In this document: positions 31,247 through 38,029 of the stretch, piece after piece
Numbering within the stretch: position 1 is the stretch's first letter
How the letters are laid out: each line of letters begins with the position of its first letter
From: a bacterium
GTDB lineage: Bacteria > SZUA-79 > Acidulodesulfobacterales > Acidulodesulfobacteraceae
Length of the DNA: 54,965 nt
Direction of reading: 5' to 3'
Assembly: GCA_003232385.1 (NCBI GenBank)
Contig: QIJE01000027.1
Span: forward strand, 1 to 54,965
Position numbers and translations under genes: made by a program
The notes under the pieces: generated by a model
What the model was told of the DNA's origin: nothing
Seen by the model: the letters and a program-made list of their open reading frames with translations, nothing else
Databases searched by the model: none

Positions 31247-32698
31247 TTAACCTACTTTGTTATATTTTCTATGCCTAAAATTGACTCCCGATTTTTTTGC
31301 AATATTTGCAATATAGGGTATGTCTATTCCCGGCAAATCTACCGCCGTGACGGTCACTTCCTTGACATACTTTTTAGATTCTCCGATAAAATCCAGAACG
31401 GAGGCATATGCTTTGACCCCTTTTTTTAAAATTTGAGGATTGCAAATCCTATCGTAATGCTCGCTGTTTTGGGCGTTAAGACTTATGCTTACGCTGTCTA
31501 TAATCTCCCCTAACTCCGGAACCGTATTCCTTTCGTAAACGGCATTTGCGAGTCCGTCCGTATCAAGCCTTATTTTTAAACCGCCGCAGCCATACCTGTC
31601 CGCATAAATCTTTTTTAAAGTTTTTGCGGCGTCCTTAAGGGTTTCTATCCTTAAAGTCGGTTCTCCGAATCCGCAAAAAACAACTTCTTTAAAATCGTAA
31701 TACCTAAAAACTGAAGAGACGACCTCGTCAACAGTAGGCTCTTTGTCTAATTTAAGATTATATCCGCGTACGTTAAAATTACTTTTACCGTTTTGATATT
31801 TTGGGCAAAATGTACAACGGTTAGTGCATTTATTCGTAAGGTTGACGTAAACGGAATTTCCGATCCTATATGCTACAGAGGGATAAAAACCGGAAATACC
31901 GCTCAAAGAAAACAGGTTTACCGTATTTTGAACGGTCAAAGCATCTAATTTGCCCCTCTCCGTCCCTTTTAATTTGGCAACAGTATCCAAAACTAAACTA
32001 ACACGTGAAGGCTCGTTTCGTTTACCCCTAAACGGCACGGGGGCAAGATAAGGGCTGTCGGTCTCTATTAAAATCTTTTCGTCCGGAATATTTTTAACCG
32101 CCGCCCTTAGTCCTTCATTCTTTTTATACGTGATATTCCCGGAAAATGAGATAAAAAAGCCCATTTTTATAAATTCCTCTGCTATGGCCGGGTCATCTGA
32201 AGAAAAACAGTGAATAACACCGCCGAAAAAACCGTCAGGCGATTTTACGTAATCTTTTAAAATATCTATCGCATCCTCGTAGGCGTCTCTTATATGTACT
32301 ATGATCGGAAGCCTATCGGTTGCGGCAAGCCCTATTTGAAATTTAAACAGCTCTTTCTGCTTTGTTTTAACTTCTCCCGAATTTTCCTTAAGCATAAAAT
32401 AATCCAATCCTATTTCTCCCACCGCAACAACCTTCTTTTTATTTACCGAATAGTAATGCTCGAATAATTTGGATATATCCGGCAAATCATTATATAAACT
32501 TTTGGGATGAACCCCGAGGGCGGTAAAAATAAAATCGTAAGAATTTATTATCTCTACGGTTTTTTCTATCCTTTCGTTTTGAGCTAAAGAGCCTATGGAA
32601 ATGGCGTGAGTTATGCCGCTATCAGACATTCTGATTAAGACGTCGGAAAAATCAGCCTCAAACTCCGCCATCTCAAGATGGCAATGAGAATCTATCAT
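31247..32698 (-). CDS. tatD: TatD nuclease fused to a radical SAM domain
   Basis: A 483-residue fusion. Residues 1-~265 are a TatD-type metal-dependent DNase (MIDSHCHLE, VAVGEIGLDY, HIRDAY, HCFSS, ETDSPYLAPVPFRGKRNEP). Residues ~275-483 are a radical SAM domain with the [4Fe-4S] site CTNRCTFC (Cys291, Cys295, Cys298), the FCGFGEPTLR glycine motif and a shortened barrel. A radical SAM partner for TatD (TIGR04038 type) is known as a separate or linked protein in delta-type bacteria; here they are one chain. Role unknown, perhaps tRNA or nucleotide modification. It starts 1 base after the RicT-MetRS gene. The radical SAM barrel ends early, as in TIGR04038 members. Confidence 0.9.
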   Translation of the reverse strand: MIDSHCHLEMAEFEADFSDVLIRMSDSGITHAISIGSLAQNERIEKTVEIINSYDFIFTALGVHPKSLYNDLPDISKLFEHYYSVNKKKVVAVGEIGLDYFMLKENSGEVKTKQKELFKFQIGLAATDRLPIIVHIRDAYEDAIDILKDYVKSPDGFFGGVIHCFSSDDPAIAEEFIKMGFFISFSGNITYKKNEGLRAAVKNIPDEKILIETDSPYLAPVPFRGKRNEPSRVSLVLDTVAKLKGTERGKLDALTVQNTVNLFSLSGISGFYPSVAYRIGNSVYVNLTNKCTNRCTFCPKYQNGKSNFNVRGYNLKLDKEPTVDEVVSSVFRYYDFKEVVFCGFGEPTLRIETLKDAAKTLKKIYADRYGCGGLKIRLDTDGLANAVYERNTVPELGEIIDSVSISLNAQNSEHYDRICNPQILKKGVKAYASVLDFIGESKKYVKEVTVTAVDLPGIDIPYIANIAKKSGVNFRHRKYNKVG

Positions 32699-32699
32699 T

Positions 32700-34949
32700 T
32701 TATTTTATTCTGGGAAATAGAATATCTGCGCTATCGGATATTTTATGCCCCTCTTTAAAACGCTGCCGGCAATTTTTAACTAAATCATCCGGGGTAAGCG
32801 GGGATTTGAACAAATCGAACGGCTCTGTATTTAGTATAGCGTTAATTTTTTTAGACGTAACAGGCATAAAGGGATATATCAAGTAGGATATACAATATAT
32901 AGATATGAGCGATGTCCTTAAAATTCTAAATAATTTCTTTTTATCCTCTTCGACGGCGACGTTAAGCTTCCAAGGGGTGCCGTCGTTTACATATTTATTT
33001 ACCGTATTTATAAATTTAAAGGTATCGTTTATGATTTTTACAAAATCATAATTGTCATATCTGTCGTTTAAACCGGTCAATATATCCGAAACCTTCTTTA
33101 CGATACCGTCGTCTATATCGGCGTCCGAACCCGGAACCTTGCCGCCCGTGTATTTTTTCAGCATCGCGATAACCCTCGAAACCAAGTTTCCAAGGTCATT
33201 TGCAAGCCCGGAGTTATATCTTAAGATAAAATTATCCATATTAAAATCGCCGTCTAATCCCAGTGTTATTTCATTTAAAAGATAAAATCTTACGGCATCC
33301 GCGCCAAACTTATCTATCAAAGAATCGGGGTCTATCGCGTTACCTAGGGACTTAGACATCTTTTTGCCGCCCGTAAGCCACCAGCCGTGTGCCAGTATTG
33401 TTTTGGGAAGATTAATATCTAAAGCGAAGAGCATGATGGGCCAGTAAACTCCGTGAAATTTAACGATATCTTTGCCGACTATATGATTGGCGGTTCTAAA
33501 AAATTTATCAAAATCAGGATTTTTGCCGTTTAGGAAGTCTTCGTATCCTAAGCCCGTTAAATAATTTAAGAGCGCATCGAACCAGACATATATAACATGT
33601 TTATCATTGCCGGGAACAGAAATGCCGCATTTAAAAGACGTCCTGGATATGCTTAAATCTTTTAAGCCTTCCCGTATAAACGATATAACCTCATTCCTTC
33701 TAAAATCGGGCTTAATAAACCCGGGATTATTTTCTATGTATTCCAGGAGTCTTTTTTCGTATTTATCTAACTTTAAAAAATAGCTTTTTTCTTTAACTTT
33801 AGACACCGGCCTCCCGCATTGAGGGCAGTTTCCGGCGTCAAGCAACCTTTCCGTCAGAAAGGTTTCGCAGGGGGTGCAGTACCAACCTTCATATTCAGAT
33901 AAGTATATATCACCCTTTTTGAATAATTTTTTAAATACGGTCTTTACCGTTTTTATATGGTCGGCATCGGTCGTTCTTATAAACCTGTCATATGATATAT
34001 TAAGGCTTCCGAAAAGTTCTTTAAATTTCTTATGTACGGAATCCGCAAGCTCTTTAGGGCTTATACCCCTCGCTTCCGCTTCTTTTTCTATTTTTAATCC
34101 GTGTTCGTCCGTTCCGGTCATAAAAAAAACTTTGTAGCCGGAAAGCCTCTTGAATCTTGCCGCAGAATCCGCGATTACCGTAGAATACGCATGCCCGATA
34201 TGCGGTTTATCGTTGGCATAATAAATAGGTGTCGTAACGTAAAAATAATCCTCGCTATACGAACCGGCACAGTCTTTACGAGATACCCCGGGTGTGTTAT
34301 TTTCGTTTTCGCAAATATCCTCGTCAACCCCGAGAGAATCAAAAGAAAGGCAGCATAGAAGCCTGCCGCAGTACCCTACGTATTTGCTTGTGCTTTGGCA
34401 TTGAATCTTTGTAGTCGCGGAAGTTATGGCATTCATCTCCGAAACGACGGTGCCGCAACAGCATACCCTTCCGCAAATGCCTATTCCACCCAAAATTCTG
34501 CACTCGTCCCGGATATTGATCTGACGCATTTCTATCCTTAGGTGAAACTTAGATGCAAGTATCTTTACGAGCTCCCTAAAATCAACCCTCTCTTCGGCGC
34601 TATAATAAAAAACGAGCTTATTCTCGACAGGCAAAAATTTAATCAGTAAAAGTTTCATCGACAGCTTAAGGCTTTCGATATTCTTTTTGCAAAAGCCGAA
34701 ACTTTCGGTTTCGATCGGATAACGTACAAATTTCTCTCCGGTTTCAAAAGCAAAAAGCTTCCTTATAACCTTGGCCTTATTCGGGAGGGTGCTGCCTTGA
34801 ACGACTTTTACTTCTCCCAAAACCATTCCCGTATAAATAATTTTATCTTTCTCTACGAGCACTCTGTCGTCCTGCAAAAGCTGCAACGCCTTTACGTCGC
34901 ACTCTAAGCTGTAATCCATCTCCCGTATTTCTACATCGACTATTCTCAT
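32700..34949 (-). CDS. metG: RicT/PSP1 domain fused to methionyl-tRNA synthetase
   Basis: A 749-residue fusion. Residues 1-~205 are a RicT (PSP1, YaaT) domain with the Cys-rich Fe-S motifs GGIGICGRVCCCG (~155-166) and YCGRLLCC (193-200). It breaks off just after this last motif, where RicT normally continues. A linker of about 35 residues (202-235) leads to methionyl-tRNA synthetase: HIGH at 250-253, zinc knuckles CTPC (358-361) and CPQC (375-378), and KMSKS at 530-534. The synthetase lacks the C-terminal dimer/tRNA-binding extension. No in-frame ATG, GTG or TTG lies at the junction, so a separate MetRS start is not supported. In other bacteria ricT and metG are neighbours in tmk-holB-ricT-metG-tatD. 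Whether RicT activity persists is unknown. Confidence 0.93.
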   Translation of the reverse strand: MRIVDVEIREMDYSLECDVKALQLLQDDRVLVEKDKIIYTGMVLGEVKVVQGSTLPNKAKVIRKLFAFETGEKFVRYPIETESFGFCKKNIESLKLSMKLLLIKFLPVENKLVFYYSAEERVDFRELVKILASKFHLRIEMRQINIRDECRILGGIGICGRVCCCGTVVSEMNAITSATTKIQCQSTSKYVGYCGRLLCCLSFDSLGVDEDICENENNTPGVSRKDCAGSYSEDYFYVTTPIYYANDKPHIGHAYSTVIADSAARFKRLSGYKVFFMTGTDEHGLKIEKEAEARGISPKELADSVHKKFKELFGSLNISYDRFIRTTDADHIKTVKTVFKKLFKKGDIYLSEYEGWYCTPCETFLTERLLDAGNCPQCGRPVSKVKEKSYFLKLDKYEKRLLEYIENNPGFIKPDFRRNEVISFIREGLKDLSISRTSFKCGISVPGNDKHVIYVWFDALLNYLTGLGYEDFLNGKNPDFDKFFRTANHIVGKDIVKFHGVYWPIMLFALDINLPKTILAHGWWLTGGKKMSKSLGNAIDPDSLIDKFGADAVRFYLLNEITLGLDGDFNMDNFILRYNSGLANDLGNLVSRVIAMLKKYTGGKVPGSDADIDDGIVKKVSDILTGLNDRYDNYDFVKIINDTFKFINTVNKYVNDGTPWKLNVAVEEDKKKLFRILRTSLISIYCISYLIYPFMPVTSKKINAILNTEPFDLFKSPLTPDDLVKNCRQRFKEGHKISDSADILFPRIK

Positions 34950-34957
34950 TTATTATA

Positions 34958-36088
34958 TTATACCCGCCCCTTTAAATATAAAAGACCGGAAAAATACGAA
35001 TCAAGCGCAATTGTTTTATTTAAATTATAACTTTTCATTTTTTCCATATGGTTAACGGTCAAATTTATCATATATACAAGGTCTTTTCGAGTGACACCGA
35101 AATTTTCAAGACCCTCGGCTATTTCCCTTATTTCTTCTGCAATGTCTTCATTATATAATAATTTTACACTTTTTGTCATATAATAAATATAAACATCACG
35201 CAGAATAAATAAAATCATCTCAAAATTAGCCGCTTTCTTTCCGTTTTCTCCGCCTTTTCCCACACCGCTAAGAAAATTATTAGACATATCGTACGGATTT
35301 ATACTCGAACGGCTATAGGCTAATTCTTTAAATACGGTATCGATTAATAAATTTCTTTTTTCTAAGTAATCGCCTCTAATAAGCCCGTAAAAATCGGAAT
35401 AGCTGCCCATTGCAATCTTGGAATAGAGTCTCAGAACATCCTCTTTCATATCCGGAAATTCAGACCTGAAGGCGTCCATTAAAACCTTATCGCCAACGGG
35501 ACCAAACTTGAGCAGCAAACATCTTGAAATAACGGTCGGCAAAAGTATACTTAAATTGTGGACGATAAGGATGAATACGGTTTTTGCCGAAGGCTCTTCG
35601 AGCATCTTTAAAAGGGCATTAGCGGCGGCGGTGGTCATTGTCGATGCTTCGTCTATAATGATAAACCTATATCCCTGATAGTACGGCGTTAAACTTAAAA
35701 ACGAACCTATTTTATGAATATTATCTATTTTTATTGAGCTTCCGGACGGCTCTACGAGCATAAGATTTTGACTCGTACCGTTTAATACGCCGATGCACGA
35801 CGGACATTTTCCGCAAAAATTCAGTCCCCCTCCTACAGCATCCGCATGGTCGTCCGAGCTTGAGAATGCTGCATCGCTCCGACGTTCATAAAGCGCATAG
35901 TCTTCACATAAAACCGAAGCCGCAAATGCCGTAGCAACAAATCTTTTTCCTATATTATGCCGTCCGTGAAACAGAAGTCCTGACGGCATCCTACCTCTGT
36001 GAAACGAATTCTTCAAAAATTCTACGGGCTTTTCATGCCCCGTGACATTTAAAATATTGTAATCGCAAATTTTACGTTCGTTACCCAT
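34958..36088 (-). CDS. holB: DNA polymerase III subunit delta prime
   Basis: A 376-residue clamp-loader subunit of AAA+ fold. It has LLFHGRHNIGKRFVATAFA as a degenerate Walker A, a zinc-type cysteine cluster (NFCGKCPSC), IIDEASTMTTAAANALLKMLEEP and ISRCLLLKF, all typical of delta prime/gamma families. The altered P-loop suggests it does not hydrolyse ATP. Position between tmk and ricT-metG is typical. Confidence 0.92.
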   Translation of the reverse strand: MGNERKICDYNILNVTGHEKPVEFLKNSFHRGRMPSGLLFHGRHNIGKRFVATAFAASVLCEDYALYERRSDAAFSSSDDHADAVGGGLNFCGKCPSCIGVLNGTSQNLMLVEPSGSSIKIDNIHKIGSFLSLTPYYQGYRFIIIDEASTMTTAAANALLKMLEEPSAKTVFILIVHNLSILLPTVISRCLLLKFGPVGDKVLMDAFRSEFPDMKEDVLRLYSKIAMGSYSDFYGLIRGDYLEKRNLLIDTVFKELAYSRSSINPYDMSNNFLSGVGKGGENGKKAANFEMILFILRDVYIYYMTKSVKLLYNEDIAEEIREIAEGLENFGVTRKDLVYMINLTVNHMEKMKSYNLNKTIALDSYFSGLLYLKGRV

Positions 36089-36096
36089 ACGTATTT

Positions 36097-36789
36097 TTAT
36101 TCGTTAGTCGACGCTATTTTTTCGTCAACCAATCCCTTTAAATCCTTCAGGATTTCCATTACTATATTCTCAGAGGGACCGGAAGCATCTATAATTTTGA
36201 TTCTATCTTTATGCCTTACAGATAGGTACAGATAACCTTCCCTCACGGCATTAAAAAAATCCGGTGACCTGCCGTCGAAACCGTCAAACCCATGAACCCT
36301 TCCGCTCAATCTGCTTAGCGCGACTTTCGGCTCTAAGTCAAGAAGATAAGTCCTGGCAATATTGAAGCTTCTTCGATTGAGAATAAACTCGTTTATCGTA
36401 AGTATAAACTCCTTTAAATCGCGAGTACCTTCGGCATCATCCGAGTTGGCAGTTTGATAAGCATAAGTCGAATCTATAAACCTGTCGCATATTATAATAT
36501 CAAAACTGTCCAACTTTGCGATAATTTCATCTACGTGTGCGGTTCTATCGGCGGAGAAAAGAAATAGTGCGGCTAACGCAGATGTTTTTATATCCATTGA
36601 TTTCATAAAAGAAGCATCGCCTCCCGTACCGAGAACCGTATTTCTTATAAATTTTCCTAGCAATGTTTCAGTAGGTTCCTTTGTCTGAAGGACCCTATAT
36701 CCGTCCTTGGCCAAATCGCTGCAAAGCAGCTTTAATGCCGTGGTCTTACCTGAACCGTCGATACCCTCAAGCGTTATAAAAATACCCAT
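36097..36789 (-). CDS. tmk: thymidylate kinase
   Basis: A 230-residue kinase that makes dTDP from dTMP. The P-loop FITLEGIDGSGKTTALK near the start and DRFIDSTYAYQ (DRx motif) are diagnostic; LID region SRLSGRVHGFDGFDGR follows. The open frame reaches back to 36945 but the extra 52 residues do not resemble the family, and the ATG at 36789 gives the canonical N-terminus; I use it. It is the first gene of the tmk-holB-metG-tatD unit, divergent from queA. Confidence 0.95.
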   Translation of the reverse strand: MGIFITLEGIDGSGKTTALKLLCSDLAKDGYRVLQTKEPTETLLGKFIRNTVLGTGGDASFMKSMDIKTSALAALFLFSADRTAHVDEIIAKLDSFDIIICDRFIDSTYAYQTANSDDAEGTRDLKEFILTINEFILNRRSFNIARTYLLDLEPKVALSRLSGRVHGFDGFDGRSPDFFNAVREGYLYLSVRHKDRIKIIDASGPSENIVMEILKDLKGLVDEKIASTNE

Positions 36790-36846
36790 AATAACCCGAT
36801 AAATTAATTTAAAATTTAGAAACCTATTTATTTTTTTCTCAGAATA

Positions 36847-36855
36847 TGTTATAAT
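36847..36855 (+). promoter_or_regulatory. extended -10 promoter of queA
   Basis: TGTTATAAT with -10 TATAAT at 36850-36855 and TG at 36847-36848, about 83 bases before the queA ATG. No clear -35 box. The inverted repeat 36878-36903 would be in the leader. Confidence 0.55.
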
Positions 36856-36877
36856 GAAAATTTTAACAAAGATATAT

Positions 36878-36903
36878 GTATGCGGCAATGTAGCAACGCA
36901 TAC
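36878..36903. repeat. inverted repeat between tmk and queA
   Basis: GTATGCG (36878-36884) and CGCATAC (36897-36903) form a 7-base perfect repeat with a 12-base loop, between the divergent tmk and queA starts. It could be a regulator site or leader hairpin. It does not look like a preQ1 riboswitch. Confidence 0.45.
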
Positions 36904-36937
36904 CGTATTTAATATAATAACATAATGACAGTCCCAT

Positions 36938-38029
36938 ATGAACATAGATTTATTTGATTACGGATTCGACAGCGAAAAGATTGCTAAATACCCCGTAAAT
37001 AACCGCGACGAAGCAAAGCTGCTCGTCTTGGATGTAAAAAATTTTAAAATAGAGCATAAAAGATTTTTTGAAATAACGGATTATATCAATAAAAATGATA
37101 TTGTAGCAGTTAATAATTCATTTGTTAAAAAAGCAAGAATATTCGGCAAAAGATTTTCAGGCGGCAGGGTCGAGGTATTTATTACGGAATTTCCCGTAAA
37201 TATTACTTTTCCGCTAAAATTAAACGCCCTTCTGAAATCCCATAAAACTATTAAGGAAAACGAAGAGATCGACATTCTCGAAACGGGCTTTAATTCCGAT
37301 AGCATATCCAAAGATAAGCCGGGGATTAAGATCACGGCGTTGCGAAACTTGGGGAAGGGAAATTATGAAATTGCAATAAAAAGCAGGGGTGATTACGATT
37401 ACATATTCGATAAATGCGCGCAAATACCTCTTCCGCCTTACCTTAAACGCAGCCCCGACGCTTTGGACGACGGATATTATCAGACCGTTTATGCAGACGA
37501 TTCATGCGGTTTTTCCGTTGCGGCACCCACTGCAGGGCTTCACTTCACCGACGATATGATAAGTAAAATTAAAGCCAAGGGCGGGATTTTCACCACTGTA
37601 TCCCTAAATATAGGGTTGGGGACGTTTCTTCCCATAAGAACGGAAGATATAACGAAACATGAAATCCACAAAGAAACATATTCCGTCTCCAAAGAAACGG
37701 CGGATATTATCAACAAAGGAATAAAGGCTGAAAATAATATCATGATCATCGGAACGTCTACCGTCAGGTGCTTAGAGTCTTCAGCTACCGACGGGGGCGG
37801 GATAATCGGGAAAAACGGCGTAGAGACGTCTCTGTATATTTATCCGGGTTATAAATTTAAAATAACAAAAAGTCTCGTTACAAATTTTCATCAACCCAAA
37901 TCGTCTCTTTTTATAATGATTTGTGCCTTGATAGGAATAGAAAGAACAAAAGCCGTTTACGAAGAAGCCATGAGAAATGACTACTCGCTTTTTAGTTACG
38001 GCGATGCCATGTATCTATATAACATATAA
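36938..38029 (+). CDS. queA: S-adenosylmethionine:tRNA ribosyltransferase-isomerase
   Basis: A 363-residue enzyme that adds the epoxycyclopentanediol part of queuosine to tRNA. Characteristic blocks: FDYGFDSEKIAKYPVNNRDEAKLLVLD at the start, GRVEVFITE, PPYLKR, YQTVYA, FSVAAPTAGLHFTDDM, and TNFHQPKSSLFIM. Length is typical. It is followed at 3 bases by tgt, its pathway partner. No strong ribosome binding site. Confidence 0.96.
   Translation: MNIDLFDYGFDSEKIAKYPVNNRDEAKLLVLDVKNFKIEHKRFFEITDYINKNDIVAVNNSFVKKARIFGKRFSGGRVEVFITEFPVNITFPLKLNALLKSHKTIKENEEIDILETGFNSDSISKDKPGIKITALRNLGKGNYEIAIKSRGDYDYIFDKCAQIPLPPYLKRSPDALDDGYYQTVYADDSCGFSVAAPTAGLHFTDDMISKIKAKGGIFTTVSLNIGLGTFLPIRTEDITKHEIHKETYSVSKETADIINKGIKAENNIMIIGTSTVRCLESSATDGGGIIGKNGVETSLYIYPGYKFKITKSLVTNFHQPKSSLFIMICALIGIERTKAVYEEAMRNDYSLFSYGDAMYLYNI

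Follow-up and report, generated by a model that had tools for sequence, protein, structure and literature searches.

A RicT–methionyl-tRNA synthetase open reading frame found in a single draft genome of the Acidulodesulfobacteraceae: recent gene fusion or assembly error

Introduction

Here, we describe a single open reading frame of 749 codons, with an ATG start and without an internal stop, in which a RicT (YaaT, PSP1 family) domain is followed in frame by a methionyl-tRNA synthetase (MetRS). The frame occupies positions 32700–34949 of the minus strand of the window, that is, the whole 54,965-nucleotide stretch of DNA that was analysed (contig QIJE01000027.1, assembly GCA_003232385.1). By the sequence features tested, its predicted product belongs to both parent families, RicT and MetRS. 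The RicT–MetRS frame is present in one genome only, and it therefore fails as an evolutionarily maintained fusion. We lean towards regarding it as a genuine, recent, lineage-private and probably neutral fusion of two genes that adjoin in an operon; a genuine event is preferred only by a modest margin, and the weights given to the different explanations are a matter of judgement, not a computed posterior.

Domain Composition of the Fused Frame

Both halves of the frame score above the curated cut-offs of their families, which confirms the reading of an earlier note on this DNA that RicT and MetRS share one frame. The RicT half is matched by the PSP1 model at residues 80–144 (Pfam PF04468; 76.4 bits, cut-off 27) and by the RicT_YaaT_fam model at residues 28–205 (NCBIfam NF041131; 155.7 bits, cut-off 70), and the MetRS half by the NCBIfam equivalog at residues 233–748 (667.1 bits, cut-off 598) and by the solved MetRS structure 2csx (E=2.8e-143). 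The Fe–S cysteine motifs that the same note had recognized are kept: Cys159/164/165 and Cys194/199/200 align with C161/166/167 and C198/203/204 of the Bacillus subtilis-type protein, and all six are invariant in an alignment with Bacillus-type and other RicT sequences. In B. subtilis RicT, four of the six corresponding cysteines are ligands of [4Fe-4S] cluster 1, and one is a ligand of the second cluster (PMC6751060).

The MetRS half was rightly described as a complete short-form core, since the HIGH motif (250–253), the Zn-knuckle cysteines, the KMSKS motif (530–534) and the anticodon-binding domain are all present, with H250, G252, H253, C358, C375, C378, K530–S534 and W660 falling in invariant alignment columns. 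It carries no C-terminal Trbp111-like domain. In these respects it resembles short-form bacterial MetRS (NF008900/TIGR00398), from which it differs by about 230 additional N-terminal residues derived from RicT. In an AlphaFold model of the fusion (25 sequences; mean pLDDT 81.5), RicT residues 1–150 and MetRS residues 233–749 are mostly well predicted and residues 154–232 are predicted to be disordered (pLDDT < 50), consistent with a flexible connection between the halves; the model contains no metal and is thus uninformative for the Fe–S region.

The proposal that the fusion had cut RicT just after its YCGRLLCC block did not hold. Separate RicT proteins of relatives likewise lack the C-terminal domain that follows this block in Bacillus-type RicT, and their tails are short, acidic or of low complexity, some carrying a DEDIC motif as in the window. 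Truncation by the fusion is thereby ruled out, and loss of the C-terminal domain is, on the sequences compared, a trait of the clade that is older than the fusion. The short RicT form with its short tail is seen both in this family and in Deferribacterota-type loci (L065–L068 and L012–L058).

Table 1. Positions of the fused gene's parts and of its neighbours in the window.
Feature	Coordinates	Strand	Placement and basis
TatD DNase and TatD-associated radical SAM domain, fused	31247..32698	-	Directly downstream; TIGR00010 and TIGR04038
MetRS core, residues 235–749 and stop	32700..34247	-	NCBIfam MetRS, 2csx, motif columns
Junction, codons 201–234, LSFDSLGVDEDICENENNTPGVSRKDCAGSYSED	34248..34349	-	End of RicT tail, in frame with MetRS N-terminus
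RicT (YaaT/PSP1) domain, residues 1–205	34335..34949	-	NCBIfam, Pfam, invariant Cys columns
holB, DNA polymerase III delta' subunit	34958..36088	-	Directly upstream; Pfam DNA_pol3_delta2, holB model match below that model's curated cut-off, order in relatives
tmk, thymidylate kinase	36097..36945	-	Upstream; profile match, conserved order

Genomic Context and Copy Number

The fused gene lies in a cluster (Table 1), tmk-holB-ricT-metG-tatD(-radical SAM), that keeps its order throughout the family and partly beyond it, in Deferribacterota and at other loci. This bears out the expectation that ricT and metG are adjacent in many genomes, and it indicates that their adjacency is old and of a housekeeping nature. 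The same order is known from the tmk-holB-ricT-metG-tatD cluster of many bacteria; only here do ricT and metG form one frame. The TatD and radical SAM parts, by comparison, are in one frame and adjacent family-wide, a conserved fusion unlike that of ricT and metG and one that already has a named family (TIGR04038). The gaps flanking the fused gene and its neighbours measure 8, 8 and 1 nt, in a tightly packed source genome in which 29% of co-directional gaps are ≤10 nt, against 22% in the relative G003. A scan of the region for promoters and terminators returned no more sites than were found in shuffled sequences.

The source genome (1.54 Mb, 40 contigs, 95.5% complete) was searched for a second ricT or metG, as the earlier note had advised, and none was found. 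The fused frame is the single ricT detected; other than the fused frame, no canonical metG was found, and the remaining class I synthetase matches (frames of 504–944 codons, at most 87 bits versus 208.7 for the window's best stretch) are as expected of other enzymes of that class. Both functions must therefore come from the fused frame, provided that the sequence is correct. RNase Y is encoded in the genome (PF12072, 170.9 bits), and the RicA/RicF family (Com_YlbF, PF06133) was not found there, which weakens the case for a ternary complex of the B. subtilis type and leaves membership of the RicT family untouched. Among 14 control genomes, the RicT and RNase Y models match the same six and the RicA/RicF model only two of those six, a distribution of model matches that suggests that RicT and RNase Y form a broader unit than the one with RicA and RicF.

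Distribution Among Relatives

The fusion was sought in relatives, where two genes kept apart by a stop and a start at the junction had been named beforehand as a sign of sequencing or assembly error. Every one of the 26 other phylum genomes with detectable ricT encodes a separate metG and a RicT frame of 226–281 codons, 749 codons being reached in the source genome only; these relatives are bacterial MAGs (e.g., DAHVNW010000001.1), none of them a second species of the source genus. Such an error is accordingly possible, not proven. When the relatives' loci were read at the DNA level, nearly every one showed a ricT stop and a metG start of its own; the frame offset is 0, 1 or 2, and the spacing ranges from overlap to several hundred bases. 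At one locus, L054, the script reported no metG start because it examined only the region upstream of the aligned core. Other genomes also contain frames that seemed to be fused (e.g., 824 codons in G001, 906 in G019, 964 in G049 and 953 in G058); these were rejected, as a stop lies between the genes and the frame is merely shared. A fused ricT-metG was likewise absent from 42 further public loci with both genes in reach, in a screen of records that include Deferribacterota, Aquificota and Bacillota loci; family searches for genomes of other phyla yielded few (9, 1 and 1).

The junction itself is compact: the distance from LLCC to YFYV is 34 codons, against 28 in the most compact relative (G018, locus L047), where ricT and metG are separate genes that share a frame. 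The metG start, as picked by script, is ATG in 37 of 39 related loci. In several close relatives (L055, L056, L057, L016 and L045), the metG start lies within the ricT tail and in the +1 frame, an overlap that is possibly translationally coupled. Given this arrangement, loss of one base, whether real or artefactual, would be a natural route to the fused frame.

The Junction and the Case for Assembly Error

The main alternative to a genuine fusion is that two abutting or overlapping genes were joined artificially in the assembly or consensus, through the omission of one base or of a short segment; we hold this to be a substantial possibility, though the less probable of the two. The separate genes of all the phylum relatives speak for it, as do the +1 overlaps at L055, L056, L057 and L016, where one lost base gives exactly the fused picture, and surveys in which frame transitions found as singletons often turn out to be errors or recent indels (PMC3711429). 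The scan of the junction cuts both ways. As the earlier note had stated, codons 201–234 contain no in-frame ATG, GTG or TTG, and no ATG occurs there in any frame. An internal MetRS start was rejected on these grounds, an in-frame ATT being present with nothing else to back it, and one extra base as the error fits a two-gene arrangement at 0 positions. One missing base, in contrast, is compatible with a ricT stop and a metG start at 95 of the 109 junction positions scanned. With ATG absent from all frames of the junction, the metG start would be TTG or GTG at nearly all of these, whereas ATG is the relatives' choice; a simple one-base error thus requires a non-ATG metG start, which counts in favour of a genuine fusion. 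Nor could any single substitution create a stop together with a start in the shared frame.

The quality of the assembly bears on the same question and was checked by comparing 820 kb of the source genome with 800 kb of the relative G003. Three of 393 conserved genes in the source genome are broken by indels: gyrB lacks one base in mid-gene (contig C3, about 143060–143100, L154), topA has a 4-base tandem duplication near its 3' end that shifts the frame (contig C3, about 127930, L153), and gpmI has a frame-shifting 10-base tandem duplication (contig C8, about 37080, L226), the three names having been assigned by reading the sequences rather than by family search. These frameshifts are probably assembly or consensus errors, or else strain variants, and the break in gyrB, at least, hardly lends itself to a biological reading. 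Two more of the flagged cases appear to be spurious frames. In G003, the reverse check gave no convincing case apart from the ricT-metG pair itself, and none there was judged real. A missing base at the junction is, in view of the breaks in gyrB, topA and gpmI, a live alternative; set against it, three indels in about 375 kb of conserved coding sequence, or roughly one every 125 kb, put the chance of a hit in a given 100-nt target at the order of 1e-3.

Occurrence in a single genome and the indel frameshifts elsewhere both count against a genuine fusion, as the frames of this assembly are not fully trustworthy. The ricT-metG pair is also the only fusion private to the source genome in a comparison of 383 conserved genes; the rarity of genuine fusions here, too, counts against one. 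On the other side, the single open frame with both domains complete, the compact junction and the tight packing of the genome speak for a genuine fusion.

Possible Function of a RicT–MetRS Chain

If the fusion is genuine, as we modestly favour, the ricT stop and the metG start would have been lost in a compact genome, yielding one polypeptide of about 85 kDa. Its MetRS half, with complete motifs and a confidently predicted fold, would charge tRNA-Met as usual. The RicT half, whose Fe–S ligand cysteines are intact, would most likely still serve as an RNase Y cofactor; in B. subtilis, RicT and RNase Y form a stable complex (PMC10470536). Joined by a linker predicted to be disordered, the two halves would probably act independently. 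At most, the chain might tether some MetRS to the membrane-associated RNase Y complex and fix the ratio of the two halves at 1:1. That a real RicT–MetRS chain ties an Fe–S RNA-processing cofactor to the supplier of initiator Met-tRNA, makes MetRS a member of the RNase Y complex and has consequences for function seems to us improbable.

Least probable of all is a selected regulatory fusion in which the RicT Fe–S cluster or its association with RNase Y senses redox state or RNA processing, modulates MetRS and couples it to initiation: the intact Fe–S ligands, the binding of RNase Y by B. subtilis RicT and the ribosomal proteins pulled down with YaaT (PMC13230545) would suit it, but the fusion is conserved in no relative, the RicA/RicF family that supplies the second-cluster ligands in B. 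subtilis was not found in the genome, the linker is predicted to be disordered, and the adjacency reflects an old housekeeping cluster with tmk, holB and tatD. Nothing was found in support of the earlier suggestion of a RicT/Fe–S redox sensor on MetRS, and redox coupling of MetRS is unsupported.

Relation to Known Systems and Significance

Compared to B. subtilis RicT, the RicT half shares the PSP1 core, the two cluster-1 cysteine motifs and a genome that encodes RNase Y. The B. subtilis protein, by contrast, is a separate polypeptide with an extra C-terminal domain that works with RicA and RicF, whereas here that domain is missing (the clade trait noted above), RicA and RicF were not found, and the frame continues into MetRS. 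Aminoacyl-tRNA synthetase fusions have been described as common (PMC13215547). A comparable case is the MetRS fusion of Mycoplasma penetrans, in which unrelated full domains also stand at the N-terminus of a bacterial MetRS (PMC13215547); its partners are an NTase-like domain and an aminotransferase, and its structure has been solved, whereas the partner here is RicT and the fusion is known from one draft assembly. A literature search found no published RicT–MetRS fusion.

Should the fusion be real, RicT would be a new partner for aminoacyl-tRNA synthetase fusions, and the case would show that RicT and MetRS can be made 1:1 on one chain. Should it be an error, it cautions that a fusion seen in one genome only, where the draft assembly has frameshifts in essential genes, is to be checked against the reads before it is interpreted. 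Either way, the conserved neighbourhood of ricT and metG outside Firmicutes, with a short form of RicT and with RNase Y in a genome where RicA and RicF were not found, is useful for the biology of RicT.
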